Shown: positions 4,219 through 38,571 of the stretch, in pieces
How positions within the stretch are numbered: position 1 is the first letter of the stretch
Layout of the letters: every line of letters begins with the position of its first letter
From: a virus
IMG/VR virus record: IMGVR_UViG_3300008107_000023
Span: 1 to 64,000 of that record
Strand: one strand, 5' to 3'
Length of the DNA stretch: 64,000 nucleotides
Made by a program: the position numbers and the translations under genes
The notes under the pieces: model-generated
What the model saw: the letters and a program-made list of their open reading frames with translations, nothing else
What the model was told of the DNA's origin: nothing
The model's database searches: none

Positions 4219-4454
4219 GCACAAATTACATATACTTTATTATATTCTTTTGTATTGCATATTTGATTCTTACCGATCAATCAGTTGCAAGAGGATTTTA
4301 TATGCTCACTCAACTTGCAAGAGTACAATATGAAAAGACAAAGTGGTGGATATTACATAATCCTGCCAATCCAATTGTAAAGTATATCATGTGGAGACGC
4401 GCATATAAACTTGCCAAAGAGTTGCAGCAAGAGATAGAATTAAGAAATAAATAA
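4215..4454 (+). CDS. Single-pass membrane protein, 79 aa
   Basis: Residues 4-20 form one strongly hydrophobic segment (IYFIIFFCIAYLIL within it). A basic, amphipathic cytoplasmic-type tail rich in Lys, Arg and Trp follows. Probably an inner-membrane protein. The function is unknown. Coupled to the upstream gene by ATGA. Confidence 0.65.
   Translation: MSTNYIYFIIFFCIAYLILTDQSVARGFYMLTQLARVQYEKTKWWILHNPANPIVKYIMWRRAYKLAKELQQEIELRNK
4446..4453 (+). promoter_or_regulatory. Possible late promoter AATAAATA
   Basis: AATAAATA overlaps the stop codon of the membrane-protein gene and lies 21 bases before the ATG at 4475, the spacing seen for other NATAAATA boxes in this window. Confidence 0.45.
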
Positions 4455-5848: not shown

Positions 5849-6010
5849 ATGGTTTACGCACAGAAAAACAAGTATCGTATTACTCTAGAACTAGACGTGT
5901 TTCAAGACTTTAACCCACGCGATATTGATTGGGAAAAACTGTTTGAATTGGGTGGCGATGAGCGTGTGAAGGCATATATTGAAGATCTGAGTCTAGACCG
6001 TATTTGGTAA
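5849..6010 (+). CDS. Small acidic protein, 53 aa
   Basis: ATG at 5849, directly after the octamer array, to TAA at 6008-6010. The 53-residue product (MVYAQKNKYRITLELDVFQD at the start) has a predicted beta strand, then the motif NPRDIDWEKLFEL, then an acidic end. Small proteins with this D-x-D-W-x-x-L centre occur in cyanobacteria and their phages (from memory). The function is unknown. It is the first gene of the GC-richer island. Confidence 0.65.
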   Translation: MVYAQKNKYRITLELDVFQDFNPRDIDWEKLFELGGDERVKAYIEDLSLDRIW

Positions 6011-21800: not shown

Positions 21801-24800
21801 ATCACAGATAATAATTGATGCAGAATATATTAAAGAGGGAAATACAATATATCGATATGAAAGTGAATATACTGGAACATATAAAATTTCGGGAATTGGA
21901 TCTACTACATTTAGTTTTAGTATGCCAACTGTTCCTGAAAAAAATATTTACAGAAAAAATGAAGGATTATTTGAATATTATACTGACTCAAAAACTTCAT
22001 ATGGTGAAATTTATGCACTAGATGTTGATACTACTGGATCTCAGTACGAAAAACTTCCAGGAATTTCTACCATTGTAAGTGAAAAGGGAACTGGAGCTGT
22101 CCTCTTGCCATACAGTTCAAGTATTGGGCAAGTTAAAACGTCAATAATAAATGATATTGGTTATGATTATTATGCTGATACTACAATTAGACCGTTAGCA
22201 AAACTACCAGAAATATTAAAAATTTCAACTTTAACTTCTTTTGAAAAGATTGGTATAACTTCTGCTGGTATAAATTATGCAGTTTCACCAGACCTTTTGG
22301 TAATAGACGGATTAACTAGAAAAATTGTTGATGATGTTGATTTGTTCTATAAAGTAGGTGATACAGAAGTTACTATTCTCAAAAATACAACAGGAATTAG
22401 TAACGTTCCTCCAATTATTATTCCTGTAAATAATTGCAATGGAGTTGGAATATCGTCAATTGGATACAATCCATTGACAAATTATGTCACTGTTGGACTT
22501 GCAGTTAGTTACAGCAATGCTTCAGACTTCCCATTCTCTGTTGGAGATAAAGTTCTAATTGAGAACATTAGTGTTGGTCTAGGATCTACAGGAAGAGGTT
22601 ATAATTCCTCACAATACTCTTATGGATTATTCCCTGTTGTAGCAGTATCTCCAAATATAGGAGGCATTAATGCTACTGTCACATATGATCTTACCGAATA
22701 TATTTCATCAGGGCAAGTTCCTGGAAGATATGATCCTATAAATTCAAAGGGTAGGATAATCCCAGAAAAACATTTTCCAAAGTTTGACGCAATTCTATCA
22801 AAAAATAATTTTATTAAGGGAGAGACTGTAGTATCAGATGATTCAATCGGAATAGTTGAAAATTGGGATCAAAAAAATGAAATTCTAAAAGTTTCCACAA
22901 ACAAAGAATTTTATACAAATACTGTATTGAGAGGTTTATCTTCAAAATCTCAAGGATTAATATCAAATAAAGAGTCTTTTGAGGCAACTTATGAAATTGA
23001 TTCTTCTTCTATTGTAACTAAAGGGTGGGAGAGACAAACTGGATTCTTAAACAGCAGTCTACAAAAAATTCATGATAATGACTATTATCAATATTTTTCA
23101 TACTCATTGAAATCAGAAATACCATATGAAACCTGGAATACACCAGTAAGTAATTTAAATCACGTTGTTGGATACAAGAAATTTAGCGATCTTGTTATAG
23201 AAACAAGAGATTTGGATTATGTTGGCATACAAACCTCTCAAGATAATGGAGATTTTTATGGAATCTGCGATTTTTCTTCTACAATTAATCTAAATCACAT
23301 TTACGATTATGATTTAGTTTTTGAAGAAACGATCAATAATGATAATAATATAATTTCAACTGATATAGTCTTTACATCGAAAGAGATACAAGATTATCTC
23401 CAATCAATAGGAAATAGAGTATTAGAGATAGATGATTTTAGTGACACATTCAAGAGTGTTCCTAGATCAACTCCATTTTCTATTGTTGATACATTTAGAA
23501 TGAATGACTCCAGATCTAGAAAATATATTACATATGTAAGAGATAAGAGATTTAGTTCGGATAGACAAATTCTATTAGTTTCTTTACTATATGATAATGA
23601 TTTTGGGTATTTAAATCAATACGGAAGAGTCGAAAGTTATCTAGAAGATCTGGGATCATTTGACTTCACTGTAAATGGCGATGAGGGCAATTTACTATTT
23701 TATCCTTCTAAGTATACAGTTAATGACTATAATATTAGTCTTCTGTCATTTAATTTAAAAGACGACGTTACAGCAACTTCTACCTCTTATTTTGGAGATA
23801 TTATAAGATTATCGACCAGTAATGTTAATGCTTCTTCGTCCACTCCCTCAACAATCGTATCGATAGCATCTACATATCGTTCAACAAAAATATTAGTACA
23901 AATAGAATCTAATAATGACATATATGAATACGATGAACTAACTGCTATTCACGATGGAACAAATGTAGATCTCTTAGAATATGGTCAAATTACAAATCAC
24001 TCAAGAAATGCATATGCAAGTAGTGGTCTGGGTACATATAATGCATATTTGTCTGGTCCTGGACTAATAGTAGAATTTATACCAAATCCAGGAGTAGCTG
24101 CAACCATAAACACTATGGCAATATCTTTTGCGGCAAATACAAGTGGTTCTGTTGGTACAGGAACTGCAATATTGAGCACATCTTCATTAAGTTCTAATTA
24201 TGTCTCTATAGCTTCTACATCTGCCCCAACTCAAAACTTAGTTTCAAGTTATTCTAGTGATTATTCTGGTGCATATTATATTGCTTCTGTCGAAGATACA
24301 ACCAATAGTAGATATCAGATTTCAGAATTGGTTGTTGTTGATGAGACAGTTTTCAATACAACCTCAATTACAGAATTTGGAATTGTAGAAACTCATAGTG
24401 GACTTGGAACTTTTGGATCTGACATTTCAGGAAATCAAACTAATTTATACTTTACGCCAAATCCAAATATTAATGCACAGGTTAGAATATTCCAAGTTGC
24501 AATGAAACCATTGGATGAGGGAATAGCAACAAATAATATTGATTTGAATAATGGATTTATAAAGAGTAATTATGGATCATATGAAGGTACTGAAAGAGAT
24601 GTTAGAAGATCTTTTGAATTAACTAGCAGCGGTAGAGAAATCTTTAAGCGTTATTTTGACGGCACCGATTCAAGCGTTGTTAATATTACAAATAATACTA
24701 TAAGAATTCCAGAACATTATTTTGTTACTGGCGAAGAACTCCAATATTCTTCTCCTGGAATTGGAAATACTCAATCTATTGGAATTACAACTGCAATATC

Positions 24801-27800
24801 AATTCCCGGAATAGGAATAACCAATAAATTGCCAGGATCAATTTATGCAATTAAAGTAAGTGACTTAGATATAAGAGTTGCTGCTTCTGCAACAGATGCT
24901 TTAAAGGCTGTTCCAATTCCACTGCAATTAAATTCACTTGGTATCGGAACTGTTCACTCATTTACTTCTAAGAGACAAAATTCTAGAGTATTAGTGACAA
25001 TTGATAATGTAATTCAATCTCCTATTGTTGGTTCTTCTATTACTACGACATGCGCGAAAACAGTTGAAATCGTTGATGATAGAGTCAAATTCTCAGGAAT
25101 TACTTCATTCTTCAGCGATGACTTAATTATGGTCGATGATGAAATTATGAGATTGAATACTGTAGGACTTGGAAGTACTAATATTGTACAAGTCCAACGT
25201 GGTTGGATGGGTACAAATATTGGAATTCACACTGTTGGCAGTTTAATTAAAAAGATATTAGGAGATTATAATATTGTTGGAAATACTATTAATTTCTTTA
25301 AAGCACCTTATGGAAAATCTCCTATAGGAACTGATAGTAATAGACCAGATGATAGAGACTATACAGGAATAACTACTCATTCAACATTTAGTGGTAGATC
25401 TTTTATGAGGTCTTCCGCTACAAATTCTACAAGTGATCCTTATAGTAAAAATTATATTTTTGACGATATTTCTGAAGGGTTTACTGGAATTAAGTCAACA
25501 TTTACATTAAGATCAGAAGGCAAAAATATCTCAGGAATTTCTTCAGATAATGCGGTAATTCTGATCAATCAAATATTCCAAGGACCACAAAGACTTGGAG
25601 TAGTTGATATTGTAGGAGACTATACATTAACAGAAAATGCAGGTATAACTTCAATAACATTTAATGGATCATATGATCCAGATGATATTACTAGCACAAA
25701 TTTACCATTCGGAGGACAGATTGTTTCTGTTGGTTCCACTAAAGGTTTTGGATATCAACCTCTTGTTGCTGCAGGTGGAACTGCAATCGTTTCTTCTGCA
25801 GGAACAATCTCAGCAATAAGTATTGGAAATAGTGGATCTGGATATAGATCTGGAATTCAAACAACTGTTAATGTTGGTGTGTATACAGAATCATTAACTT
25901 CTACAAATATAACCTATGTTGGATTTGCTTCAGTTAGTAATGGAAATATTGTTGGTGTCTCAATAACAAATCCTGGAATTGGATATACTTCAAGTAATCC
26001 ACCAAAGGTAATTTTTGATTCTCCATTATCATATTCAAATATTCCTTTAGTTTATTCCACAAATTCAACTCCTGGATTTGGTACTGGAGCAACTATTAGT
26101 ATTGTAGTTGGACAAGGATCAAGTATCATTGACTTTGAGATACAAAATAATGGGTATGGATACGGTCAGGGTGAAAAATTAACTATTGAGTATGGTGGAT
26201 CCACTGGCATTCCAACAGATATAACAAAGAATCTTCAACCATTTGAATTATCAATCGATAGAATTTATAATGACCAGTTTAATGGTTGGTCTCTTGGAAG
26301 TTTTCAAGTTATTGATAATATAGATGAATTATTTGATGGTCAAGTTAATACTTTCCCAATAAAAATTGATGGAGTTCAACAGTCAATAAGATCCAAAAAA
26401 GGATCAAACATTAATGTAGAATCTACACTGCTAGTGTTTATAAATGATATTTTACAAACACCAGGACAATCCTACATATTTGAAGGTGGAAGCATTATCA
26501 AGTTTGTAGAAGCACCTAGAGCAGGAGATACTTCTAAAATTCTTTTCTATAAGGGAACTGAAGGTGTCGATGTAGTTTCTGTTGATATTTTAGAAACTGT
26601 TAAAGTTGGAGATCAGTTAAGAATTTATAGTGAAGATCTTAGTTTAAATCAAACAAATAGATTGGTCACAAGAGTTAATTCTTCGGATAGTGTTTTGACA
26701 AACCCATATTCTAATATTGGTGTTTCTTCAAATAGAAATCTTTTAAGACCTGTAATCTGGTGCAGACAAACAGAGGATGTTATTATTGACGGCATACAAA
26801 TTTCCAAAAACAGAGAATGGTATGAACCCTTAGTAAATCCATCAACAAATATAATACAAAGTGTTGGAGTAGGATCTACATTTATTTTTGTGGAAAGTGT
26901 TAAGTCATTCTTTGATAGTGCTAAGGAGAATACATCTTCTTCAATCTACTACACAGTCAAATTGACTTCACAAGATCAAAAAGTATCGGCTGCTAGTACC
27001 GCAATAGTATCAATTGCAGGAACGATAAGTTCTATTAATATTACAAGTGGCGGAATTGGATACTCAACAAATCCAACAGTTACTATTGCAAATCCTGTCG
27101 GATTGGGCACCACTCTAAGAGCTTCTGCAAATGCATTTATTTCTGCGGGAGTAGTAACTTCAATTCAAATAAATTATGGTGGAATTGGATATACAACAAC
27201 AAATCCTCCTGTTGTTTTAATTGAAGATCCAGAACCAATTTCAGAGATTATTGAATATGTTTCATATGAGGGTGATTTTGGAAGAATTGTTGGTGTTGCA
27301 ACAACTTCAGTAGTTGGAGTTGCTTCCACTGCTATTGCATTTGATTTCTATATTCCACAAAATTCAATATTGAGAAATTCTTCGATTGTAGGAACAGCAA
27401 TAACAATTAGTGGAATTTCTACTGGATATTATTTCGTAGTAAATAAATCAAATGTTGGAAATGGTGTAACTTCTTTAAGGAGAGATAAATCTATCGTTGG
27501 CGTTGGCACGGAGTTTCTGGACAATGTTTATGAGGTTATTTCTGTTTCTAATGTAACAAGAAGTATACCTGGTATAGGTGTAACTTATGTTTCAAGAGTC
27601 ATAACTTCAGTTTCTTCTTATAATGGGTTAACAGGAATTGCTAACACAGGATACTATGGCAATTATAGTTGGGGAAAAGTTTCTACAAATAGCAGAACTA
27701 ATCCAACAGCATTTAATTCGTACAATAACAATGGAACAACTGGTTTGTCAACTAATCCAATTTTAATTAGATTAAATCCATTGAGATACTTTAATTATAA

Positions 27801-27807
27801 TTCATAA
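15844..27807 (+). CDS. Giant virion structural protein with YHYH domain (VrlC-like)
   Basis: 3987 residues in one uninterrupted frame. The N-terminal ~70 residues (KINSIVENQLPLFVRDEYPL) are typical of the large baseplate-region protein of cyanophages, often named VrlC. The rest is modular. There are many Gly-Gly-x-Gly-Tyr/PTVTIS-like beta modules, repeated HG-x-x-x-GD-x-I-x-Y segments (for example near residues 918 and 1653), and ID-x-E-I-x-x-Y-T-G modules near residue 96 and again near 3095. A YHYH domain lies at about residues 1220-1340 (IIGWAYDGNPIYGPYG). Between gp6 and gp8, it is most likely a baseplate-periphery or fibre-like protein. The role is unproven, and the length is large even for this family. 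Confidence 0.88.
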   Translation: MADTRIKINSIVENQLPLFVRDEYPLVAEFLSQYYKSLDAKGGVSDILQNIDQYVKLENLTNLTDSTVLINDIDSLGDVIEVESTYGFPDSYGLIQIDSEIITYTGITTNQFVGCARGFSGITTYQGNTNLDQLIFSQSGIATHASGSTVSNLSIRFLKDFFNKIKKQVVPGFEGREFYENLNEELFITNSKDFYTSKGTDQSYKILFKALYGVDVEVIKPKDYLIEPSNAQYRVVRNLVVESLEGEDLSELLNRTIYQEQGDLYNGANGVVNNIEKILRDGKEYYVLSLDYDYQKDIGLNGSIFGEFSIHPRTKILNNVSIGATFIDVDSTVSFPTEAILYTKLDNGTTVSIGYSGKSLTQLYNCYGIDQNIPAGSDLNVDAYAYGYGKNNQIIKFRVTGVLSDLDIIDNTYYFAKNDTVRIKTLGYDSKKFRDNNWIFNICPSYTIKSLDLIDSTDYTYRLATIDQNIFNIGDILELLLTDGSIIKTTIYSIENRNSCIIKGQGLIPPTNLIVNVKKSLSRVNSTNQPELSLYTTNIQNVYTDLDSTFVTSPSLPTYHEEPLNINDLSVTFSGSFSGEELRIVRHGFYTGEAIWYNESDENNRLDILNGIYYVKKIDEDTIKLSKSRSNIDNNKFVSVNGTVVNNKFEYYKFNSQKVEPQKIIRKISDPEDDGNIYETLPGAIGILVNGVEVLNYKSSDSIFYGELEEIIVSGGGYDYDVVNPPILQITDKIGVGATGFCSVVGTLERIDIIDPGFDYISEPIITISGLNGQEATAKATLTSFEHYVDFNSSSNANMVDLSNNTIAFSTYHKFRDSERVIYRTDKQQSVGGLTTDSQYYVYVEDAYTVKLHKTQNDAIIGINTVNLTSYGIGNHRFRSYSPKNRIGFINILNAGYNFTNRKISVTRSGINTYSNEISAKNHGYNEGDIITYESINPIGGLSTSKKYFVSKIDDDKFKLSEVGIGSTLSRYFYETNQFVNLTSNNDDNHYFNYPPIEILINGVIGVSTKSGQDFNAKIRPIILGEIKSVFLDSGGVGYGCSDIIGYNRQPQITLVNGDGAEITPIVSNGKIVDVLVNNSGANYNSTPEIIYYGDGYSSLMTPIINDGKLTEVKVINGGVGFNTSNTTAIVLSRGQEAKFEAKIKEWTINLFEKLYQNNKISNDDGIVDSGLNSDYGLQYTHIYSPRSLRKTLLSSRFVDGNLNYTPDLILINDKEVKSSSHSPIIGWAYDGNPIYGPYGFTKVGSRSGTVKQMISGYEIIQNLPTTRPSLDLYPKGFFVQDYEFKAKGDLDEYNGRWCITPEYPNGVYAYFSTINSDTVESSGVFKNYKKPEFPYLIGNKFRSKPIEYNFTRYANQDSIDLSGTYWFRNTTPYGLTNENTFYDYLIKPSNIQNQTSKIKFATKGAVESVGIVSGGINYNVGDLVVFDNTETGGRGASARVSLVKGNEIQEISCSTNKIENIEFSPYLTLGSFIGFSSLPHGFKNSDYVYITGINTTTTSLKNLYEVGVRSETFKLISGIGSAAATGIVTYFNISGSLIYPNIRENDVLGIGTEKVKVLSVDIKSSRIKVLRQYDNTVGSAHTSLTPLYENSRKFTINVGYNTSNQYRVNREIYFNPSESLGIGITGTYTAYISNPGSGSSTVTIPVRSIYYENHGLETGDRLVYFSNGGTPVSVSTNGSSSFQLLDNQIVYSVRINNDLIGISTLKVGVGSTGTYVGIDSSKPTSILYFTGIGTGTIHSFRTNYDNVVIGSGIKNIVTISTASTHGLNIKDSVYINSSPGISTTIVVKYNDYNRRLIVNPRSFVSSDVDIVNDIITINNHGYNNGQKIIHTSTSPCTGLTNEQIYYAVVLDENKIKLSENYYESVSSKPSIVSIGSSSFGTLSPINPELAILKGSSVIFDLSDSSLSYSKNSTLYPAFELNFYLDKNFKNKFETSQLSNEFEIYREGVVGIDPTANVKINATQNFPQTIYYKLDVVNIDNIPVEKSQIIIDAEYIKEGNTIYRYESEYTGTYKISGIGSTTFSFSMPTVPEKNIYRKNEGLFEYYTDSKTSYGEIYALDVDTTGSQYEKLPGISTIVSEKGTGAVLLPYSSSIGQVKTSIINDIGYDYYADTTIRPLAKLPEILKISTLTSFEKIGITSAGINYAVSPDLLVIDGLTRKIVDDVDLFYKVGDTEVTILKNTTGISNVPPIIIPVNNCNGVGISSIGYNPLTNYVTVGLAVSYSNASDFPFSVGDKVLIENISVGLGSTGRGYNSSQYSYGLFPVVAVSPNIGGINATVTYDLTEYISSGQVPGRYDPINSKGRIIPEKHFPKFDAILSKNNFIKGETVVSDDSIGIVENWDQKNEILKVSTNKEFYTNTVLRGLSSKSQGLISNKESFEATYEIDSSSIVTKGWERQTGFLNSSLQKIHDNDYYQYFSYSLKSEIPYETWNTPVSNLNHVVGYKKFSDLVIETRDLDYVGIQTSQDNGDFYGICDFSSTINLNHIYDYDLVFEETINNDNNIISTDIVFTSKEIQDYLQSIGNRVLEIDDFSDTFKSVPRSTPFSIVDTFRMNDSRSRKYITYVRDKRFSSDRQILLVSLLYDNDFGYLNQYGRVESYLEDLGSFDFTVNGDEGNLLFYPSKYTVNDYNISLLSFNLKDDVTATSTSYFGDIIRLSTSNVNASSSTPSTIVSIASTYRSTKILVQIESNNDIYEYDELTAIHDGTNVDLLEYGQITNHSRNAYASSGLGTYNAYLSGPGLIVEFIPNPGVAATINTMAISFAANTSGSVGTGTAILSTSSLSSNYVSIASTSAPTQNLVSSYSSDYSGAYYIASVEDTTNSRYQISELVVVDETVFNTTSITEFGIVETHSGLGTFGSDISGNQTNLYFTPNPNINAQVRIFQVAMKPLDEGIATNNIDLNNGFIKSNYGSYEGTERDVRRSFELTSSGREIFKRYFDGTDSSVVNITNNTIRIPEHYFVTGEELQYSSPGIGNTQSIGITTAISIPGIGITNKLPGSIYAIKVSDLDIRVAASATDALKAVPIPLQLNSLGIGTVHSFTSKRQNSRVLVTIDNVIQSPIVGSSITTTCAKTVEIVDDRVKFSGITSFFSDDLIMVDDEIMRLNTVGLGSTNIVQVQRGWMGTNIGIHTVGSLIKKILGDYNIVGNTINFFKAPYGKSPIGTDSNRPDDRDYTGITTHSTFSGRSFMRSSATNSTSDPYSKNYIFDDISEGFTGIKSTFTLRSEGKNISGISSDNAVILINQIFQGPQRLGVVDIVGDYTLTENAGITSITFNGSYDPDDITSTNLPFGGQIVSVGSTKGFGYQPLVAAGGTAIVSSAGTISAISIGNSGSGYRSGIQTTVNVGVYTESLTSTNITYVGFASVSNGNIVGVSITNPGIGYTSSNPPKVIFDSPLSYSNIPLVYSTNSTPGFGTGATISIVVGQGSSIIDFEIQNNGYGYGQGEKLTIEYGGSTGIPTDITKNLQPFELSIDRIYNDQFNGWSLGSFQVIDNIDELFDGQVNTFPIKIDGVQQSIRSKKGSNINVESTLLVFINDILQTPGQSYIFEGGSIIKFVEAPRAGDTSKILFYKGTEGVDVVSVDILETVKVGDQLRIYSEDLSLNQTNRLVTRVNSSDSVLTNPYSNIGVSSNRNLLRPVIWCRQTEDVIIDGIQISKNREWYEPLVNPSTNIIQSVGVGSTFIFVESVKSFFDSAKENTSSSIYYTVKLTSQDQKVSAASTAIVSIAGTISSINITSGGIGYSTNPTVTIANPVGLGTTLRASANAFISAGVVTSIQINYGGIGYTTTNPPVVLIEDPEPISEIIEYVSYEGDFGRIVGVATTSVVGVASTAIAFDFYIPQNSILRNSSIVGTAITISGISTGYYFVVNKSNVGNGVTSLRRDKSIVGVGTEFLDNVYEVISVSNVTRSIPGIGVTYVSRVITSVSSYNGLTGIANTGYYGNYSWGKVSTNSRTNPTAFNSYNNNGTTGLSTNPILIRLNPLRYFNYNS

Positions 27808-29387: not shown

Positions 29388-32300
29388 ATGCCCCAGGAAA
29401 CTAATCTCAATGTATCACCTTATTTTGATGATTTTGATGCAATAAATGGATACTATAGGGTACTATTTAAACCAGGGTACCCTGTACAAGCTAGAGAATT
29501 AACAACAATTCAATCCATTTTACAAAATCAAATTGAACAATTTGGAAATCATTTTTTCAAGGAAGGTTCTGTTGTAATTCCTGGTGGCGTAAACTATGTT
29601 GATAGTTATAAAGCTGTTGAACTTCAGAATTTGTATTTGGGAACCAATGTTATTGCATATTTGCCAAGTTTAATTGGAAGAACTCTTAGGGGCCAGAATT
29701 CTGGAGTAAGAGCAACCGTAATTGGTGTACTAGACTTTACAAATTCGGATCGAGGAAATAATACATTATATGTAAACTATTTAAATTCAGATTCTCAAAC
29801 TAATAGTTATGAAGGATTTGCTGATGGAGAAATTTTATTAATTGAAGGGGCACTAACAACAAAAAGTTCTTTAAATAGAGAACAATCAGTAATATTTCAA
29901 GATGGAGAGGGAATTGCGTCCACAATTTCTGTAGATTGTAATTCACCTTCTTCTGCGGTTATAATTTCTTCTGGAGTTTACTTTTTAAGAGGTTGTTTTG
30001 TTGAAGTACCAGAACAAACAATACTATTAGACCAATACTCAAATACTCCTAGTTATAAAGTTGGATTTGAAATCTTTGAAGATATTATTACTTCAGATAA
30101 AGATAAATCGCTGAATGATAATGCACAGGGATTTTCGAATTATTCTGCTCCAGGTGCCGATAGATTATCTATAAAAGCAGTAATTTCTAAGGTTCCTTTA
30201 GGTGTAAAAGATGTTGAAAATTTTGTTCAACTTCTAGAAGTTGAGAATGGTGTTCTTAGATCAGTATCTAATACTCCACAATATAATATTTTACAAAAAG
30301 AACTTGCCAGAAGGACTTATGAAGAGTCTGGTGATTATTATGTAGTACAACCAAAACTAAGTGTACAAGAATCATTAAACGATCTTAAGGGCAACAATGG
30401 GTTATTTACAGAAGATCAGATAACATATGATGGAAAAGTACCTTCAGAGGATCTTGGTACTTACAAAATATCTCCACTAAAAGCTTTTGTTAGAGGATAT
30501 GAGATAGAAACCATATCTCCAACTTTTATTGATTTTGAAAAGCCTAGGACAACTAAAAAATTACAAAATAGAAGTATTAATTATGTAACCGGACCAACAT
30601 TTACCTTAAATAGAGTTTATGGATCCCCAAGCTTAGGGATTGCAACTTCATATACTTTAAGTTTAAGAAATTCTAGGATTGGATCTGATCAAAAAACTGC
30701 TTCAGGAAAAGAGATTGGACTCGCAAGAGTATATGATTTTGCTTTAGAATCGGGATCATATAGTACAGCATATCCAGATATTAATGAGTGGGATATATCT
30801 CTTTATGATATTCAAACATATACTGAAATATTTTTAAATGAACCAATATCTTTAAGTAATTCTGTTCATATTAAAGGAAAATCTAGCGGAGCTGTTGGAT
30901 TTTTAAGATTTGATGCTAGCAATTCTGGTATCATTACTGCATACAATACCAAAGGTAATTTTATAGTTGGCGAAAAAATTATATTCAATGGTACCGAAAG
31001 TATAAGCAGAGTTTCTACAGCAATAACGGATTATTATCCAAATGACATCAAATCTCTGTATGGAGTTGTTGGTTCTGCTTCAACTTTTACTGCAGATGTA
31101 AAACAATATCCTTCTATTAATATTGGACAAGTAAATATAACTGCAGGAAGTGGTGGAATAAGCACTGTTTCTTCCTCGTCATTTATATTTTCCGGTATAG
31201 CTACAGTAGGAAATATTGTATCTTACTCTAATCCTGGGTTGTCCACAGTCTCATACGCAAGAATAGAGGCAGTATTTCAAAATTCTATCCGAATTAGTGC
31301 AGTAAACAAAGTTATTGGTGTATGTGAAGGAGATTTGCCAACAACAATTATTAATCCTAGCGATTTTAATATCTTAACTTCAAGATTCCAGTCTTCAACC
31401 GATAATACTTTATATACAGTATTACCAAATCAAAACATATCTTCTGTAGATTTAGAGAATTCAAATTTAACCATCAGAAAAGAATTTATTGTCAATATCA
31501 CATCAAATTCAACGGGAACTATAGTTGCTGGAAGTAATGAAACCTTTTTACCATTTGATGAAGAAAGATACGTATTGATAAGATATGATGGACAAACAGA
31601 AAATTTAAGTGCAGATAAATTTGTATTTACTTCCGGATCTACAGAACTTACAATAAATGGATTAGGGTCAAATACAACTGCTAGATTAATAGCAACTCTA
31701 AGAAAAGTTAACATCAAAGAAAAGGTTAAGAATAGAAATAGAGTAAGATCAATTATAATTGACAAATCAAAATACGAAGGATCTGGAATCGGATCAACTA
31801 CATTTAATGACGGATTGACATATGGAAATTATCCATATGGCACTAGAGTTCAGGATAGTGACATATGCTTGATGGAACCAGATGTAACCAAAATAATTGG
31901 TATTTTTGAGTCCAATGATACATCTAATCCAGATCTTCCTGCGATTAGTATGATATCTCTTTCCGGTCCAACAAATAAAACTGGCGATTTATTGATTGGA
32001 GAAGAAATTGTAGGAAAAGAAAGTAATGCAGTAGCTATCTATTCTGAAAAACTAAATGATCTAAAAATTTCTTTAATATACTTAAACGAGAATAGATTTA
32101 AAGTTGGTGAAACCGTAAAATTTAAAGAATCTGGAATACAAGCAATAATAACAGAAGTAGAATCTGGAGATCAGAATATTACAAATAGTTTTACTTTTGA
32201 AAATGGTCAGACAAATACGATTTATGATTACTCCAGAATAGTAAGAAAGACTACATCTTCAGAGCCAACAAGAAGATTGAAGATATTGTTTGAGTCTGCA

Positions 32301-35300
32301 AGTTATCTGCCATCAGACACTGGGGATATTACAATAATAAATTCATATAACCAATTTGATTATTGTGATTTACCTGCAATTAATGGAGTTAAGTCAAGTG
32401 ATATTATTGATATTAGACCTAGAGTATCAAATTATTCCGTAACTTCTGGATCCAGATCACCATTTGAGTTTTTGGCAAGATCATTTACTTCTAGCGGAAA
32501 TTCTGCATCTAATATTTTAGCTTCAGATGAGTCAATACTATTAGATTATTCTTATTATTTGCCTAGAATAGATAAAATTTTCTTAACTAAAGAAGGATAT
32601 TTGCAGTTAAGTAAAGGAGAACCCTCAGATAATCCTCAACCACCACTACCAGCAGATGATGCTATAGAAGTTGCAACAATGCTACTTCCCGCATATTTGT
32701 GTGATCTAAGTTCCATTAACATAAGCATGATGGAGCATAAGAGATATAGAATGGTTGATATCTCTAGTTTAGAAAATAGAATTAAAAATCTAGAATACTA
32801 TACTTCATTGTCTCTTCTGGAAAGTGATACTTCCAATCTACAAATTAGAGACACAAATGGATTGAACCGATTTAAGTGCGGTTTCTTTGTCGATGATTTT
32901 TCAGATACTAAGTCTCAACTAAAGAAAACGATAGTAAAGAATAGTATTGATGTCAAAAACTCAGAACTAAGACCTTCTCCTTATACAACTTCAATTGACT
33001 TACTTTTAGGATCAACTTCATTTGTTGGAATTGATGGAGTATATGATCCAACAGCAGATCTTGGATATGTGACCGATTTGATTGGAACTGGAATTAAGAG
33101 AACTGGCGATGTAATAACACTAGATTATACTGAGGTTTTAGAAATAGATCAACCTTATGGCACAAGAGTTGAAAGTGTTGCTCCATATAGAGTTGCTTAT
33201 TACAATGGTACCATAGAGTTAACACCTTCTTCTGATATTTGGGTTGATACTGTAAGATTGTCAGCGAATAATATTAATGTACAAGGCAATTATACAGAAA
33301 CTTTCTCTCAAATCAGCATTGCTGATTTAGATAAGCAAACTGGTTTTGGACCCGTAATTTGGGGATCTTGGGAAACTAATTGGACAGGAACCACTAAACA
33401 AACTCAAACTGAAGTTGTTCAAGATGAGTATGGCAATACTTTCCAAGAAACGTATGATATTACATTGGCTAGTGGAACAGCCGCTAGAAAAGGATTAAGA
33501 ACTAGCACTAAAGCAGAATTTAGTACAGTTTCTCTTGGCGATAAGATTCTAAGTACGGATATAATTCCATACATGAGATCTAGAAATATTGAATTTGTTG
33601 CAAAGAGATTAAAACCCTCTACAAGAGTATATGCGTTTTTTGACGGAAAGGATATTAATAGATTTATTGTTCCAAAACTAATTGAAGTTTCTATGCAGTT
33701 TGGATCATTTGTAGTTGGAGAAACTGTTAAAGGTTATATCGAAGGTTCTTCACAAGATACTCAAGAAAGTCCTTCAATATCTTTTAGAGTAAGTTCTTCT
33801 AATCATAAGTATGGTCCATATAATAATCCTTCAGATATCTATGTTTCAAATCCATATAATAGAAACGAATTTTTACCTTCTGAGTATTCTACAACTTCAA
33901 CTACTCTAAATGTAGACACATATAGTTTAGCATATCAATCACAGGGTTTATATTATGGATATGTTCTTCCAGGAATGAAGTTAAAAGGACAAACTAGCGG
34001 AGCTGAAGCAACAGTTGCAGATGTCAGATTAATTACTGATAGTATTGGGGTTATAATAGGATCTTTCTATATTCCAAATCCAAACATCAATACAAATCCT
34101 TATTTTACAACAGGAACAAAATTATTCAGATTGACAAGTAGCAATCTAAATTCTCAAGTACAGGGAAGTATTACTAGTGCAGAAGAAAAATTCTATGCAG
34201 AAGGTAAAGTTAATAAGGCTCAAGAAAATGTTCTTTCTTTAAGAAATGTTAGAGTTGAAAACCAAACAGTCATCGATGCAACTTCGGTTGTTTCTGATGG
34301 ATATACTGTTGTAGAAACTACTCCAATCAATGTTCCTTCAATTCCTCCTTCTCCCGCACCAGTTAGTGGTGGTGGAAGAGGTGATAATGATACTCCTCTA
34401 TCTAAACCAGTTGATGTTCCCAATCCTCCAGTCGCACCAACAACTGGTGTAGAGTACCTATTGACAACTGCAAGAGGAACTGGAAAAACAGTTGCCGTTG
34501 AACTTCAAACCGTTACATATCAAGGAAAAGAATACAACTATGCTGAACTTGAATCTAAGAAGAGCATTTCCACCCAAGAGGCTAAACAAATATTCGCTCA
34601 ACAAGGTGTTACTCTTACTGCAGCCGATATAAGATTTGAGAGGAAGACCCGAGATAAGGATATTAGACAAGATAAGTTAGATGCTAGAATTGTTAGCGAT
34701 GAAAAACTGAATAATATTTTAAGTCAGTCTGGAGTAAAATCTAGAAATACTGATACTAAAGTTATTGCAAATGTAAGTAGAACTGGAGGAACTAATAGGT
34801 CAGTTACTGTAGGTCAACAAGTTACGACTACTCAAAGATCTAAAGACGGATTTGTTGGCAAAAATAATACTAGATCTGTTGGTACAAGTATTGTTATATC
34901 AGGTGGTTCTATGGGTGGTGGAAGTAATATGAGTTCTGGTTCTGGTGGATTTGTGACTTCCAATTCAAATTCGAGCAATAGAGGAGGAAATTCTAGTGGT
35001 TCTATGAGTGGTGGTGGTGGTGGAAATAATGGCGGATCTGCTGGCGGAGCTTCTATGAGCGGCGGTGGCGGAGGTAGCAGTGGTGGAGGAATGAGTGGCG
35101 GCAGCAGTGGTGGCAGCAGTGGCGGCGGTAGTAGTGGTGGTAGCAGTGGTGGAGGAATGAGTGGCGGCAGCAGTGGCGGCGGTAGTAGTGGTGGTAGCAG
35201 TGGTGGAGGAATGAGTGGCGGCAGCAGTGGCGGCGGTAGTAGTGGTGGTGGTGGTATGGGTATGAGTGACATTAATTTAAAAACCAACATTCAACCTATC

Positions 35301-35342
35301 AATAATGCACTAAATAGATTGTTTAGTATTAATCTGAAATAA
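29388..35342 (+). CDS. DUF4815-type baseplate/tail structural protein, N-terminal half with Gly/Ser tail and truncated S74 domain
   Basis: 1984 residues. The start (YFDDFDAINGYYRVLFKPGY, then PVQARELTTIQSILQ) is the DUF4815 signature of T4-like marine phages. The body ends around residue 1640 at AEEKFYAEGKVNKAQENVLS. In relatives, as I recall, a DPLAQSF-type C-terminal domain comes next. Here it is replaced by a Pro-rich linker, a helical stretch and a Gly/Ser/Met tail (about 1835-1955). The frame then begins an S74 intramolecular-chaperone domain (SDINLKTNIQPINNAL) and stops after about 26 residues. The rest of S74 lies in the next frame at 35342, and the missing DPLAQSF part begins the gene at 36067. 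Confidence 0.85.
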   Translation: MPQETNLNVSPYFDDFDAINGYYRVLFKPGYPVQARELTTIQSILQNQIEQFGNHFFKEGSVVIPGGVNYVDSYKAVELQNLYLGTNVIAYLPSLIGRTLRGQNSGVRATVIGVLDFTNSDRGNNTLYVNYLNSDSQTNSYEGFADGEILLIEGALTTKSSLNREQSVIFQDGEGIASTISVDCNSPSSAVIISSGVYFLRGCFVEVPEQTILLDQYSNTPSYKVGFEIFEDIITSDKDKSLNDNAQGFSNYSAPGADRLSIKAVISKVPLGVKDVENFVQLLEVENGVLRSVSNTPQYNILQKELARRTYEESGDYYVVQPKLSVQESLNDLKGNNGLFTEDQITYDGKVPSEDLGTYKISPLKAFVRGYEIETISPTFIDFEKPRTTKKLQNRSINYVTGPTFTLNRVYGSPSLGIATSYTLSLRNSRIGSDQKTASGKEIGLARVYDFALESGSYSTAYPDINEWDISLYDIQTYTEIFLNEPISLSNSVHIKGKSSGAVGFLRFDASNSGIITAYNTKGNFIVGEKIIFNGTESISRVSTAITDYYPNDIKSLYGVVGSASTFTADVKQYPSINIGQVNITAGSGGISTVSSSSFIFSGIATVGNIVSYSNPGLSTVSYARIEAVFQNSIRISAVNKVIGVCEGDLPTTIINPSDFNILTSRFQSSTDNTLYTVLPNQNISSVDLENSNLTIRKEFIVNITSNSTGTIVAGSNETFLPFDEERYVLIRYDGQTENLSADKFVFTSGSTELTINGLGSNTTARLIATLRKVNIKEKVKNRNRVRSIIIDKSKYEGSGIGSTTFNDGLTYGNYPYGTRVQDSDICLMEPDVTKIIGIFESNDTSNPDLPAISMISLSGPTNKTGDLLIGEEIVGKESNAVAIYSEKLNDLKISLIYLNENRFKVGETVKFKESGIQAIITEVESGDQNITNSFTFENGQTNTIYDYSRIVRKTTSSEPTRRLKILFESASYLPSDTGDITIINSYNQFDYCDLPAINGVKSSDIIDIRPRVSNYSVTSGSRSPFEFLARSFTSSGNSASNILASDESILLDYSYYLPRIDKIFLTKEGYLQLSKGEPSDNPQPPLPADDAIEVATMLLPAYLCDLSSINISMMEHKRYRMVDISSLENRIKNLEYYTSLSLLESDTSNLQIRDTNGLNRFKCGFFVDDFSDTKSQLKKTIVKNSIDVKNSELRPSPYTTSIDLLLGSTSFVGIDGVYDPTADLGYVTDLIGTGIKRTGDVITLDYTEVLEIDQPYGTRVESVAPYRVAYYNGTIELTPSSDIWVDTVRLSANNINVQGNYTETFSQISIADLDKQTGFGPVIWGSWETNWTGTTKQTQTEVVQDEYGNTFQETYDITLASGTAARKGLRTSTKAEFSTVSLGDKILSTDIIPYMRSRNIEFVAKRLKPSTRVYAFFDGKDINRFIVPKLIEVSMQFGSFVVGETVKGYIEGSSQDTQESPSISFRVSSSNHKYGPYNNPSDIYVSNPYNRNEFLPSEYSTTSTTLNVDTYSLAYQSQGLYYGYVLPGMKLKGQTSGAEATVADVRLITDSIGVIIGSFYIPNPNINTNPYFTTGTKLFRLTSSNLNSQVQGSITSAEEKFYAEGKVNKAQENVLSLRNVRVENQTVIDATSVVSDGYTVVETTPINVPSIPPSPAPVSGGGRGDNDTPLSKPVDVPNPPVAPTTGVEYLLTTARGTGKTVAVELQTVTYQGKEYNYAELESKKSISTQEAKQIFAQQGVTLTAADIRFERKTRDKDIRQDKLDARIVSDEKLNNILSQSGVKSRNTDTKVIANVSRTGGTNRSVTVGQQVTTTQRSKDGFVGKNNTRSVGTSIVISGGSMGGGSNMSSGSGGFVTSNSNSSNRGGNSSGSMSGGGGGNNGGSAGGASMSGGGGGSSGGGMSGGSSGGSSGGGSSGGSSGGGMSGGSSGGGSSGGSSGGGMSGGSSGGGSSGGGGMGMSDINLKTNIQPINNALNRLFSINLK
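34891..35265 (+). repeat. Gly/Ser/Met minisatellite inside the structural gene
   Basis: Near-perfect GGT/GGC/AGT/AGC repeats encode GMSGGSSGGGSSGG-type units. GGAGGAATGA recurs at 35085, 35151 and 35205 (periods 66 and 54 bases, both multiples of three), so copy changes would keep the frame. This gives the false Pro-rich ORF on the other strand. Confidence 0.85.
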
Positions 35343-35611
35343 TGGGATTGTATCTTGATAAAATAACAAGATTAAATGGAAAATATTATGAGTGGAATAA
35401 TAAAATGAAAGAAATAACCGGTGTGACAGGAAATTCTTATGGAGTTATAGCACAAGAAGTCCAAAAAGAATTTCCTGAAATGGTCGAAATGCAAGATAAT
35501 GGATATCTTGCTGTTGATTACAAACAACTAATTCCTGTTATCATTGAAGCATTAAAGGAAATGAAGCAAGAGATGGATTCATTAAAAAAAATTATTGGTC
35601 AAACTATATGA
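35342..35611 (+). CDS. C-terminal part of an S74 intramolecular chaperone domain, separate frame
   Basis: 89 residues. LDKITRLNGKYYEWN, then SYGVIAQEVQKEFPEMV, then YLAVDYKQLIPVIIEALKEM is the core and C-terminal coiled coil of Peptidase_S74, normally preceded by SDI-x-x-K...NAL in one chain. The preceding gene supplies that N-terminal piece and ends in TAATG, so this ATG shares one base with its stop (-1 frame). It may be made by reinitiation, by frameshift or bypass, or be a broken gene end. The stop overlaps the SET gene by ATGA. S74 domains fold and release fibre or spike trimers by self-cleavage before the Ser-Asp. Confidence 0.8.
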   Translation: MGLYLDKITRLNGKYYEWNNKMKEITGVTGNSYGVIAQEVQKEFPEMVEMQDNGYLAVDYKQLIPVIIEALKEMKQEMDSLKKIIGQTI

Positions 35612-36009
35612 GAAGAAATGTTGAGTCTTTCAAGTCAATGCATTTAAATGATTTGATATTTTCGGAAAAAATGATAGTCCAAAGATCAAATATACATAGA
35701 TGGGGAGTTTTTGCAAAAGATTCAATAAAAAAATATGAAATTTTAGAGGAATTTCCTTACTTTAAAGTACCTTTAGAAGAATTAAATAATGCTCCTTCTT
35801 GTGTAAGTTATAGTTACAATTTAGATAATGAATTTAGTATTATAGGAATGGGTTTTTGTGGATTGTATAATCATAGTTTTGATCCAAATGTAGATTATGA
35901 AATAGATAAAGTAAATGAAGTAATGAGGCATTATGCTATTAGGGATATTGATGCTGGTGAGGAATTGACTTTAAATTATGGAGAAGAAAATGCTGAAAAT
36001 TTTATTTAA
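35608..36009 (+). CDS. SET-domain protein (probable lysine methyltransferase)
   Basis: 133 residues. The SET-domain landmarks are in order: NIHRWGVFAKDSIKK (29-42, first strands), GLYNHSFDPN (85-94, the N-H-S motif that binds S-adenosylmethionine), then DIDAGEELTLNYG (113-125, with the catalytic-pocket Tyr124). It is short, with no Cys-rich post-SET part visible. Family members methylate protein lysines. The target here is unknown; virion proteins or host factors are possible. It is coupled by ATGA overlap to the S74 fragment and lies between the two halves of the DUF4815-type gene. Confidence 0.88.
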   Translation: MRRNVESFKSMHLNDLIFSEKMIVQRSNIHRWGVFAKDSIKKYEILEEFPYFKVPLEELNNAPSCVSYSYNLDNEFSIIGMGFCGLYNHSFDPNVDYEIDKVNEVMRHYAIRDIDAGEELTLNYGEENAENFI

Positions 36010-36017
36010 CTAGAAAA

Positions 36018-36024
36018 ATAAATA
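36018..36024 (+). promoter_or_regulatory. Late promoter ATAAATA
   Basis: ATAAATA in the 57-base gap after the SET gene, 42 bases before the ATG at 36067. It gives the C-terminal half gene its own late promoter. Confidence 0.5.
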
Positions 36025-36066
36025 ATTAATAGTAATAAACTTGAGTAAAAATCAACAGATAAAAAA

Positions 36067-38571
36067 ATGAAACTAGTAGATCCATTAGCACAATCTTTTT
36101 ATGTAGAGCCAAAGAGTGGAATATTTGTAACTTCTGTTGATCTTTATTTTTTCTCCAAAGATCCGGAACTTCCAGTAACGGTTCAATTGAGACCAATGAA
36201 TTTGGGGTTTCCATCGAATAAAGTATATCCATTTAGTGAGATTGTAGTAGATCCTAAAGATGTAAATGTATCCGACGATGGATCAGTGGCCACGCGAGTA
36301 ACATTCAAGTCACCGATTTATCTATCTGGATCAGAATTTCATTGTATATGTTTGTTATCAAACTCAAGTGAGTATCTAGTCTGGTTATCTAGATTGGGAG
36401 AGATTGATACCGAGTCACAAACTCAACTAGAATCTAAACAAATTGTAGTAACAAAACAACCTCTTTCTGGTTCTATTTTTAAATCACAAAATGGAATAAC
36501 TTGGAATCCAAGTGATTTTGACGATTTAAAGTTCAAACTTTATAGAGCTAGTTTTGGTGTAATTGGAGATGTAAATTTTTACAATCCAGATTTATCTACA
36601 GGAAATGGAGAAGTAGCAAGATTAGTAAAAAGACCACTATTTTTAAATTCGAGGAAAGTTAAAGTTGGATTGGGGACAACTTTATCGACAAGTGATCTAC
36701 CAACACTAGGAAATACAATTGTCCAAAGAAATTCTAGTGTAACTGCTAATTATGTTGGATATGCAGGATCTTGCAGTGGAAATTTAACAATTGTAAATGC
36801 TGGAATTGGATATACACCGTCTTCGGGAAATAGAACTTTTGCTGGAGTAGCTTTAACTAGTGTGACTGGTACCGGCAAAAATGCGACAGCAAATATTCAT
36901 ATATCTAATGGTGTTGCTGTTGCTGCAACAATTCAATCTGGCGGAACAGGATATATTGTTGGTGATATCCTAACCGCAAATCAAATTGGAAATGATACAT
37001 TAGGAAGAAATATTAGATTATCGGTAAGTTCTCTATCAGGAATTAATGAACTTATCGTAGACCAGGTTCAAGGAGAATTTTTGACTGGTGTAGGAAATAC
37101 TTTGCAGTATGTAAATAATTCTGGAATAACTACGGATCTAAAGGCAACGGGATCTAACGTTCTTGCAAGTACAATCGAACTTCAAAGTGATGGTTTACAT
37201 ATTAAAGTAAATCACAAAAATCATGGAATGCACTCACCTACAAATACTGTTTCGATTTCAAATGTTTTGCCAGATACAATTCCGTCAAAATTAATGGCAA
37301 ATTATGATCTATCTTCAACTGCAGATATCTTAGTCGAAGATGAATCAGTATTTGGTACATTTGAAAATGTTGGAGTTGGAACATCCAATTTAGGATACGC
37401 AAGAATTGGAGATGAAATTATTTCATACTCAGGAACTTCTACTGGCGCTTTAACTGGAATAACAAGATCCGTTGACCAAACCGTTGCGTCTTCTTATACA
37501 ACAGGAACTCAAATATACAAATATGAACTTGGATCAGTTTCATTGAGGAGGATTAATAAAGATCATAGTCTTGGCGACTCTACTGTTAGTGAATCTATAG
37601 GACTTGATCATTATCATATAAAAATAGATACTAGTTCTAATGGCATTGATAGATCTACAGGAGCAAGTTTTCCTAAGTTATATTTGAATGAAACAAAATC
37701 TGCAGGTGGATCTAGAGTTAATGCATCACAAAATATACAATATGAAATTATTAGACCAAATATCGAAACATTAACTCTTAATGGAACTAAAATAAATGCT
37801 TCAATAAGAACTGTTAGTGGAACAAGTGTAAGCGGAAATGAAGAGTCTTTCTCAGATCAGGGTTTTGAAGAAATTAATTTAAATGCGAACAATTATTTAA
37901 ATTCGCCAAGATTAATATGCTCTAAAGTAAATGAAAATAGTAAACTGTCTACACTGCCAGGCAAAAAATCATTTACTTTAAATATGAGACTATTGACAGC
38001 AAATACTTATATTTCTCCAGTTATAGATCTTCATAGATCTGGTATGATTTTAACGTCTAATAGAATTAATAATGTCATTGAAGATTATGTAGAAGATGAG
38101 AGAGTGTCTACTCTTAAAGATGATCCAACCGCATTTGTATATGCAACGAAACCAATTTCACTAGAAACTCCAGCAACTTCCATTAAATTATATGTAAATG
38201 CATATGTAAATGTGGATAGTGATATAAGGGCTTTATTTGCAATTGCTAACGATCCAAAAGAAGAACTGATTTATTATCCATTCCCAGGATATGACAATCT
38301 ATCAATAGTCGGAGAAACTTCAATTTCTCCAAGTCCAGAAACTATCAAAAAAGTTGTCGATACATCAAAAAATAGTGGAAGACCGGACAGAAAAAGACCA
38401 AAAAGCACTAAAAGAGGATTTTTTGCCAATCAACTTGAATTTATTGAGCATGAATTTACTATAGACCAATTACCGGCATTTAGATATTTTAGTGTTAAGT
38501 TAATAGGAACTTCAACAAATCAAACATACCCTCCAAGATTTAGACAATTAAGAGTTATTGCACTTGCCTAA
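36067..38571 (+). CDS. Tail/baseplate structural protein: separated C-terminal half of a DUF4815-type protein
   Basis: 834 residues. It begins MKLVDPLAQSFYVEPKSGIF, then VTVQLRPMNLG and SDDGSVATRVTFKSPIYLSG. I know this text as the interior or C-terminal domain of DUF4815-type proteins, not as a protein start. A GGTGY-type beta module lies at about residues 275-300, and an RIGDEIISYSG...TGITRS module lies near 440-470. The C-terminal ~150 residues (RLICSKVNENSKL onwards, ending PPRFRQLRVIALA) are a compact domain. It probably assembles with the 29388 product in the baseplate. Confidence 0.82.
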   Translation: MKLVDPLAQSFYVEPKSGIFVTSVDLYFFSKDPELPVTVQLRPMNLGFPSNKVYPFSEIVVDPKDVNVSDDGSVATRVTFKSPIYLSGSEFHCICLLSNSSEYLVWLSRLGEIDTESQTQLESKQIVVTKQPLSGSIFKSQNGITWNPSDFDDLKFKLYRASFGVIGDVNFYNPDLSTGNGEVARLVKRPLFLNSRKVKVGLGTTLSTSDLPTLGNTIVQRNSSVTANYVGYAGSCSGNLTIVNAGIGYTPSSGNRTFAGVALTSVTGTGKNATANIHISNGVAVAATIQSGGTGYIVGDILTANQIGNDTLGRNIRLSVSSLSGINELIVDQVQGEFLTGVGNTLQYVNNSGITTDLKATGSNVLASTIELQSDGLHIKVNHKNHGMHSPTNTVSISNVLPDTIPSKLMANYDLSSTADILVEDESVFGTFENVGVGTSNLGYARIGDEIISYSGTSTGALTGITRSVDQTVASSYTTGTQIYKYELGSVSLRRINKDHSLGDSTVSESIGLDHYHIKIDTSSNGIDRSTGASFPKLYLNETKSAGGSRVNASQNIQYEIIRPNIETLTLNGTKINASIRTVSGTSVSGNEESFSDQGFEEINLNANNYLNSPRLICSKVNENSKLSTLPGKKSFTLNMRLLTANTYISPVIDLHRSGMILTSNRINNVIEDYVEDERVSTLKDDPTAFVYATKPISLETPATSIKLYVNAYVNVDSDIRALFAIANDPKEELIYYPFPGYDNLSIVGETSISPSPETIKKVVDTSKNSGRPDRKRPKSTKRGFFANQLEFIEHEFTIDQLPAFRYFSVKLIGTSTNQTYPPRFRQLRVIALA

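Follow-up and report, generated by a model that had tools for sequence, protein, structure and literature searches.

A Peptidase_S74 domain laid out on two chains within a divided DUF4815 baseplate gene

Here, we examined a 64,000-nt stretch of viral DNA, the window (positions 1 to 64,000 of the IMG/VR virus record IMGVR_UViG_3300008107_000023, which comprises 94,911 bases), and in particular its locus for a baseplate protein of the DUF4815 (VrlC-type) family. Our comparisons show that, as far as the domain can be recognised from sequence, a Peptidase_S74 (S74) domain is laid out on two chains at this locus: its front forms the C-terminal end (tag) of the upstream baseplate protein (A), and its back (C-half) is a separate open reading frame (ORF). 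The baseplate protein itself is divided, as in related uncultured phages of T4-like type, into A and a downstream half (B), with the C-half and a SET-domain gene between them (Table 1). The arrangement probably represents an S74 chaperone made as two chains by coupled translation and carried on a baseplate tail that can be swapped, where coupling, trimer formation and cleavage are the parts that we infer.

Results

A ends in SDINLKTNIQPINNALNRLFSINLK and the next ORF begins with MGLYLDKITRLNGKYYEWN, its ATG sharing one base with the stop codon of A (TAATG). The 89-aa ORF scores 37.7 bits against the Pfam S74 profile (PF13884; cut-off 22), of whose 58 positions it covers 17-57, and the Ser-Lys pair of the SDxxLK motif is present in the tag on A. 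Front and back lie, in the window and in the 50 split places described below, in two ORFs and not on the one chain of Peptidase_S74. The preliminary description of this locus had reported an S74 piece at the end of A and a second S74 frame; both are present, and what it did not spell out is that they are the front and back of one domain. Our search of the mostly non-subscription literature brought up no paper recognisable as a description of a split S74 domain.

A scan for the C-half in 170 loci and the window returned 105 matching places, several of them one contig refetched; here and below, many loci (L numbers) are one contig fetched by several queries, and counts of places are not counts of phages. 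Fifty of the 105 places are split, with the front motif in another frame and a stop between, and 53 carry an intact S74 in one frame; the two left over are L133, at a contig edge, and the window's second S74 at 61368, which is whole in one ORF (Pfam). Rounded identity to the window C-half is 60-100% at split places and at most 53% at intact ones, such that the domain is cut at the same point in all 50 places that are at least about 60% identical. A second query yielded 12 new phage loci, all split (L188-L190, L194 and L204-L211; 58-68% identical to the nearer query), among which L189, L190 and L194 are alike, as are L204-L207 and L211. Sequencing or assembly error is ruled out by the recurrence of the same cut in many contigs with different offsets.

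The junction was measured in 25 rows of the split set, two near-identical pairs included. Relative to the end of the A stop, the C-half starts at -17 in 4 rows, -4 in 8, -1 in 3, +1 in 1, +2 in 5, +5 in 1 and +7 in 3; the start codon is ATG in 24 and GTG in 1, the C-half measures 81-110 aa, and in none of the 25 is it in frame with A. Tags on baseplate proteins have 22-30 residues, and S1, D2, L5, K6, N8, I9, I12 and L16 are invariant in 21 aligned tags, a count to be read knowing that the tag-finding pattern itself demands S, K or R, N and I. Among 23 sequences, the ratio of nonsynonymous to synonymous polymorphism (pN/pS) in the true frame is 0.36 for the tag (0.20 over the first nine codons and 0.52 over the rest) and 0.27 for the C-half, and exceeds 1 for both in shifted frames.

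In bacterial genomes, the C-half profile found 18 loci, of which 16 are intact, none is split and two (L234 and L239) have no class; among the intact ones, identity rises to 56% in L235 and 60% in L240, although the matches span just 41 and 30 residues, respectively. L235, L237 and L240 come from Bosea genomes, where long open frames finish in an S74-like end on one chain; in L235 and L237, these frames are Gly-rich just before that end.

The AlphaFold model of the C-half, built from a 21-sequence alignment, has a mean predicted local distance difference test score of 82.3 and comprises helix 3-9, strand 13-17, helix 20-26, strand 31-35, helix 37-43, strands 48-50 and 56-58 and helix 60-88. 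In Foldseek, it matches 7dc3, the ICA domain of MyRF, at E 2e-5 and a template-modelling (TM) score of 0.75 by query length; all three matches below 0.001 are to 7dc3, followed by 3gw6 and 3gud at 0.085-0.21. The portion of the MyRF study that we drew on gives the order a1-b1-a2-b2-a3-b3-b3a-b3b-b4-a4 for this domain, with the a4 coiled coil as the main driving force of the trimer and Ser-Lys cleavage only in the trimer (PMC8326128); the role of the Ser-Lys dyad in the S74/ICA domain is treated in excerpts of the same study and of PMC3742443. Judging from the model, the C-half seems to have the whole chaperone body including a helix 1 of its own, with the catalytic strand on A; read from its sequence, the tag would also form helix 1.

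The baseplate protein around this domain belongs to one family and occupies two genes. The 1984-aa A matches DUF4815 (PF16075) at 192 bits (cut-off 30); no Pfam family matches the 834-aa B. Of the 2056 positions of phrog_358, 1-1411 correspond to A residues 1-1637 and 1421-2055 to B residues 4-834. A and B together thus match the profile in order, which places them by sequence in the DUF4815 baseplate family, albeit not as the single polypeptide of phrog_358: they are two ORFs with stops, and 1,768 nt separate the matched parts. Because A and B fall on consecutive stretches of phrog_358, the profile comparison supports one ancestral protein, and one ancestral gene, that is now in two genes. 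In the solved relative ORF65 (9euf; 1152 aa), which we take to be a staphylococcal phage protein, both parts are in one protein, and S-SCSM1, the closest phage-collection record for B, has a single coding sequence of 7,812 bases. The layout outlined in the preliminary description stands in these respects: the ORFs of 1984, 89, 133 and 834 aa, the normal DUF4815 start and body of the first, B as the continuation of the same protein, and, between the halves, a set of linker, S74 and SET, which we resolve into tail, split S74 domain and SET gene.

The split is widespread among close relatives. In the phage collection, tblastn found 1510 records for B and 1202 for the upstream part, and a query bridging the junction aligned in one uninterrupted piece in 56 of 60 records sampled down a ranking of 1483; among the remaining four, DSL-LC03 gave two pieces and three fell short of the upstream side. 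Many split loci, by contrast, are among the best 80 of 226 viral-contig matches. Whether relatives routinely encode the DPLAQSF domain as a separate gene, a point on which the preliminary description had staked its reading, depends on where one looks: a separate gene is the rule in the near clade and not outside it.

We built a midpoint-rooted tree of B from the loci of the viral-contig matches and the window (83 rows), duplicates dropped; L001, L002, L004, L072, L082, L083 and L087 were left out, being the window's own record, a refetched contig or the window's sequence. Among the rows, 34 are fused; 21 show both halves, split, in a locus that lacks S74 as well as SET; S74 accompanies the split in 10 more, and S74 together with SET in 8; where the upstream half is off the contig, 4 are split (2 with S74, of which L014 also has SET) and 6 fused-like. 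L030 and L053 (split, S74 not seen) have only 383 and 224 bases of contig upstream, which leaves the absence of S74 uncertain. All 43 demonstrably split rows, 9 of them with SET, fall in one group of 44. The 44th, L022, is labelled fused-like only because its locus begins 2 bases ahead of the half; an S74 C-half is present on the same contig, in L177. On these sequences, the split is an old, clade-wide state, and the gene would most simply have been cut once, in the ancestor of this phage group; we take the fused state to be older because the phage records and ORF65 are fused. Two fused relatives, L008 (174-893) and L028 (2122-2796), have DUF4214 linkers (663 and 672 nt) where others are split.

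The late-promoter-like box ATAAATA lies 10-100 nt upstream of 8 of the 25 listed gene starts in the window (mean 0.42 for random positions; none of 2000 draws reaches 8). The box at 36018 noted in the preliminary description stands 49 nt before the ATG of B, and the motif occurs within 100 nt upstream of B in 24 of 30 split loci chosen. No box lies in the 200 nt preceding the start of the C-half or of SET. The C-half and SET would depend on coupling, and B would be transcribed from its own promoter.

The tail of A is variable. About 200 residues are common to the window and L003 (78%) and, from residue 48 of the stretch, also to L005 (34%). Among 15 split loci with the tag compared with 15 without, seven tagless tails (L003, L009, L011, L013, L026, L027 and L029) bear a clear resemblance to a tagged one and terminate no more than 11 residues from SD, the alignment stopping 0-7 residues before SD with 1-17 own residues beyond; of these, L026 nearly duplicates L027, L009 is closely similar to L013, and low-complexity glycine alone accounts for the alignment at the end of L003. 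Such ends fall where the mature end would lie after the predicted cleavage, although loss of a terminal module would look alike. The comparison shows the freed C-terminus of A to be a site where tails are swapped. In L084 (5246-6733), the A tail contains a Hint/intein-like stretch (PT-HINT at 25.2 bits, below the cut-off of 27.7); L085 and L086 are near-copies, L084 being the one scanned. In L107 (1-2836), an A-like tail with a split S74 is followed by terminase-like genes (labelled by eye) and not by B, possibly an assembly join.

A is in some loci broken again. In L108, the break lies near residue 1339/1380; the tail of the first chain ends with the tag SDVQLKQNIVLINSALDRLININFNN, and the next chain begins 5 nt later (4317). 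The two tags of this locus lie at 4231-4308 and 5925-5990, the second followed by the sole C-half found in the 53,280-base contig. Second breaks with tagless tails occur in L012 (7223), L013 (2249) and L029 (about 8775, start by eye); in all four loci, the break falls in a variable loop near residue 1335-1380 and gives three chains. Among 117 loci with A spanning this region (repeat contigs included), seven were flagged as interrupted: L012, L013, L029, L010, L108, L184 (the L108 contig) and L211. With a strict motif pattern, an extra (orphan) tag was found only in L108 among the loci fetched. In L114 and L115, tag and C-half are on an unrelated 483-aa protein, which (L114 scanned) has no Pfam match and one weak phrog match.

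The 133-aa ORF is a SET methyltransferase by profile, for which lysine methyl transfer is predicted: it matches PF00856 at 52.2 bits (cut-off 22.4) over positions 2-105 of 105, and its best solved relative is 1n3j, the PBCV-1 enzyme (E 2.4e-13). Its ATG overlaps the stop of the C-half (ATGA). Elsewhere, the window record has T4-like baseplate genes of the gp6 and gp8 types (Pfam and phrog matches), and a very long protein of 3987 aa at 15844-27807 of the window matches phrog_2885, a baseplate wedge subunit. In L104 (10440-10997), a homing-endonuclease-like ORF (I-HmuI NUMOD-like) lies between two apparent neck genes. As a clue to the host, photosystem genes were sought in four records and found in none of the four.

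Table 1. Coordinates of the divided baseplate gene, the split S74 domain and the ordinary S74 protein in the window
Feature	Position	Strand	Basis
Upstream half (A), DUF4815/VrlC-type baseplate protein, residues 1-1637	29388..34298	+	Pfam DUF4815; phrog_358 1-1411; solved relative 9euf, ORF65
A, whole ORF, 1984 aa	29388-35342	+	ORF list
Variable C-terminal tail of A: ~200 residues, then Gly/Ser-rich stretch	34299..35264	+	Comparison with L003, L005
Tandem repeat, 54-bp unit, 3.4 copies, 91% matches, encoding part of the Gly/Ser run	35065..35249	+	
S74 N-half tag SDINLKTNIQPINNALNRLFSINLK, C-terminus of A (putative self-cleavage strand and helix 1, by comparison)	35265..35339	+	
Stop codon of A	35340-35342	+	
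S74 C-half, separate 89-aa ORF	35342..35611	+	Pfam S74; AlphaFold model; Foldseek
SET-domain methyltransferase (by profile), 133 aa	35608..36009	+	Pfam SET; solved relative 1n3j
Late-promoter-like box ATAAATA, 5' of downstream half	36018..36024	+	Motif count
Downstream half (B, MKLVDPLAQSF...), 834 aa	36067..38571	+	phrog_358 1421-2055; 9euf chain residues 789-951
815-aa protein with ordinary one-ORF S74 domain (profile 1-57), same genome	59181..61628	+	Pfam

Discussion

We propose that a single DUF4815 (VrlC-type) chain was cut at the linker before the DPLAQSF domain, with both parts kept, and that the freed C-terminus of A became a place for tail swapping. The Ser-Lys strand and helix 1 would stay on A as the tag, and the trimer-forming body would be a small separate protein, translated, as the overlap suggests, by stop-start coupling; SET would be translated from the same overlapping run. 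Three C-halves would trimerise via the long C-terminal helix, and the trimer would bring three tags together, which would let the tails fold jointly and make the active site complete, and the tag would be cut off before SD. Because L108 has two tagged chains and one C-half in view, and L114 and L115 have the tag on an unrelated protein, we tentatively raise the possibility of action in trans: a short tag could be placed on one virion chain or another, and one small trimeric protein, shared by them, would capture and align such tags and trigger their removal.

Several observations weigh against this interpretation. A copy of helix 1 seems to be present on both tag and C-half, so that this is not simply an intact domain cut in two. 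The phage endosialidase reaction, as presented in the relevant part of PMC8326128, also uses an arginine of the upstream stalk, and no endosialidase-type stalk arginine could be placed in the Gly-rich A tails. In the tree of the C-domain, 33 of 34 rows labelled split are real (L133 is so labelled as its contig starts 9 bases before the match), and the split rows group on weak support (90/51) with the long-branched intact L222 among them. Likewise, the view that the gene was split only once depends on a quick B tree made without bootstrap (Shimodaira-Hasegawa-like approximate likelihood ratio test, SH-aLRT, 92), in which the fused L008 and L028 are placed just outside the split group on weak support (60). 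Eight of the 15 S74-less tails do not end at SD: L005, L038 and L050 among them align well above shuffles, whereas the excess over shuffles is smaller for L006, L034, L036 and L040 and absent for L037. Finally, L108 stands for a single, fragmentary contig (fetched twice), and the rest of that genome may contain another C-half.

The preliminary description ascribed the split to insertion of a linker/S74/SET cassette into the baseplate gene of this phage. The cassette does lie exactly at the break, and it may have moved: C-half identity to the window is 81-85% in six SET-bearing loci (L014, L032, L033, L084, L088 and L089), 73-76% in L103 and L102 and 58-71% in the 12 SET-less loci taken for comparison, whereas the A and B halves are 44-62% identical to all loci of this comparison and 53-58% to the six with SET. 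The pattern fits exchange of tag, C-half and SET as a block by recombination. As the cause of the split, however, insertion is not borne out. Split loci with neither S74 nor SET are common in the same group (21 of the 83 rows), long linkers are already present at the junction in the fused L008, L028 and L031, and none of the 44 rows of the split group is shown to be fused, the nearest fused locus, L008 (60% identical), lying just outside. Moreover, the nearest relative, L003 (B 90% and A 92% identical to the window), is split without S74 and SET; a 135-nt stretch before and into its B matches the window at 91% from 35988, 22 nt inside the SET end, and the last 22 nt of SET that it keeps, with NAENFI in the SET frame, look like a deletion scar, such that L003 would still be split after losing the cassette. 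These rows and the scar rule out a recent insertion as the cause, and we consider it very unlikely that the cassette split the gene. The notion that the S74 frames are decaying remnants without function draws on the many relatives that lack S74 and on the deletion in L003; it deserves hardly any credence against the pN/pS of the two pieces, which in the true frame is far lower than 1, and the repetition of the same cut in 50 places and 12 further loci, bearing in mind that searches for C-halves and tags show mainly intact motifs.

Given that the two S74 frames overlap or adjoin and together cover the domain, a programmed frameshift or ribosome hop could be imagined to join them into an ordinary one-chain S74. 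The offset, however, goes one way in 17 of the 25 rows and the other way in 8; a start codon heads the C-half in all 25; when six junctions were folded as single strands, z ranged from -2.01 (L007) to 1.23 and stayed above -1.2 in all but L007; and inspection by eye of 12 of the 25 sequences revealed no codon pair usable as hop sites in all. In L101, L103 and L104, the A stop precedes the opening of the second frame, so that no shift bridges them; because the frame of A ends there before the second one opens, stop-start coupling is pointed to instead. The unfixed offset, the unbridgeable loci and the lack of a strong fold in five of six junctions lead us to reject programmed frameshift or bypass, which we rate even lower than cassette insertion. 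A stronger competitor, though an unlikely one, is that the C-half acts as an assembly chaperone in its own right, for which the tag is only a docking site that would stay in the virion without self-cleavage. Separate chaperones directly 3' of fibre genes are known from T4, Mu and V22 gp27 (as covered in part of PMC7289586), and a chaperone made separately need not be removed by cutting. Yet the cleavage Ser and Lys are kept in all 21 aligned tags (the pattern demanded Ser and Lys/Arg), and 7 of the 15 tails lacking S74 terminate close to that boundary. A coupled, self-cleaving two-chain chaperone remains the reading that we prefer.

If it is correct, the S74 'intramolecular' chaperone need not be intramolecular, and the sequences suggest that a helper known to cleave itself can also function as a stand-alone component. 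Tag and C-half would constitute a natural short tag and partner for making trimers and clean C-termini, and a baseplate protein would be able to gain a site for swappable tails with its core undisturbed. Automatic annotation of such loci could give a truncated S74 gene and two unrelated baseplate genes.

Comparison with known systems sets the arrangement apart in each case. T4 gp38, Mu Tfa and gp27 of Alteromonas phage V22 resemble the C-half in being made separately, and none of them is the back part of a self-cleaving domain with its front on the client. To our knowledge, T4 gp38 and Mu Tfa are not S74 folds. All three are small genes directly 3' of the structural gene whose product they assemble, and V22 gp27 is presented, in the part of the report used here, as lacking homology to known phage chaperones (PMC7289586). 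Polinton-like viruses encode S74 domains beside fibre genes, and the excerpted account, our sole basis for comparing them, describes no domain whose front is left on the neighbour (PMC12220804). The SET protein has its whole-domain match and best solved relative in common with the PBCV-1 lysine methyltransferase and differs in standing in a phage baseplate gene run. With DUF4815/VrlC/phrog_358 proteins of cyanophages and with ORF65, the family relationship extends over both halves, which form one chain there, two here and three in L012, L013, L029 and L108. Closest of all is Peptidase_S74/ICA itself, as found in endosialidases, phage fibres and MYRF, which shares the SDxxLK strand, the order of helices and strands, the long C-terminal helix, the C-terminal place on a virion protein and the model match to 7dc3; the difference is that here the domain would be made of two polypeptides, with its body supplied by a separate overlapping or adjacent ORF.

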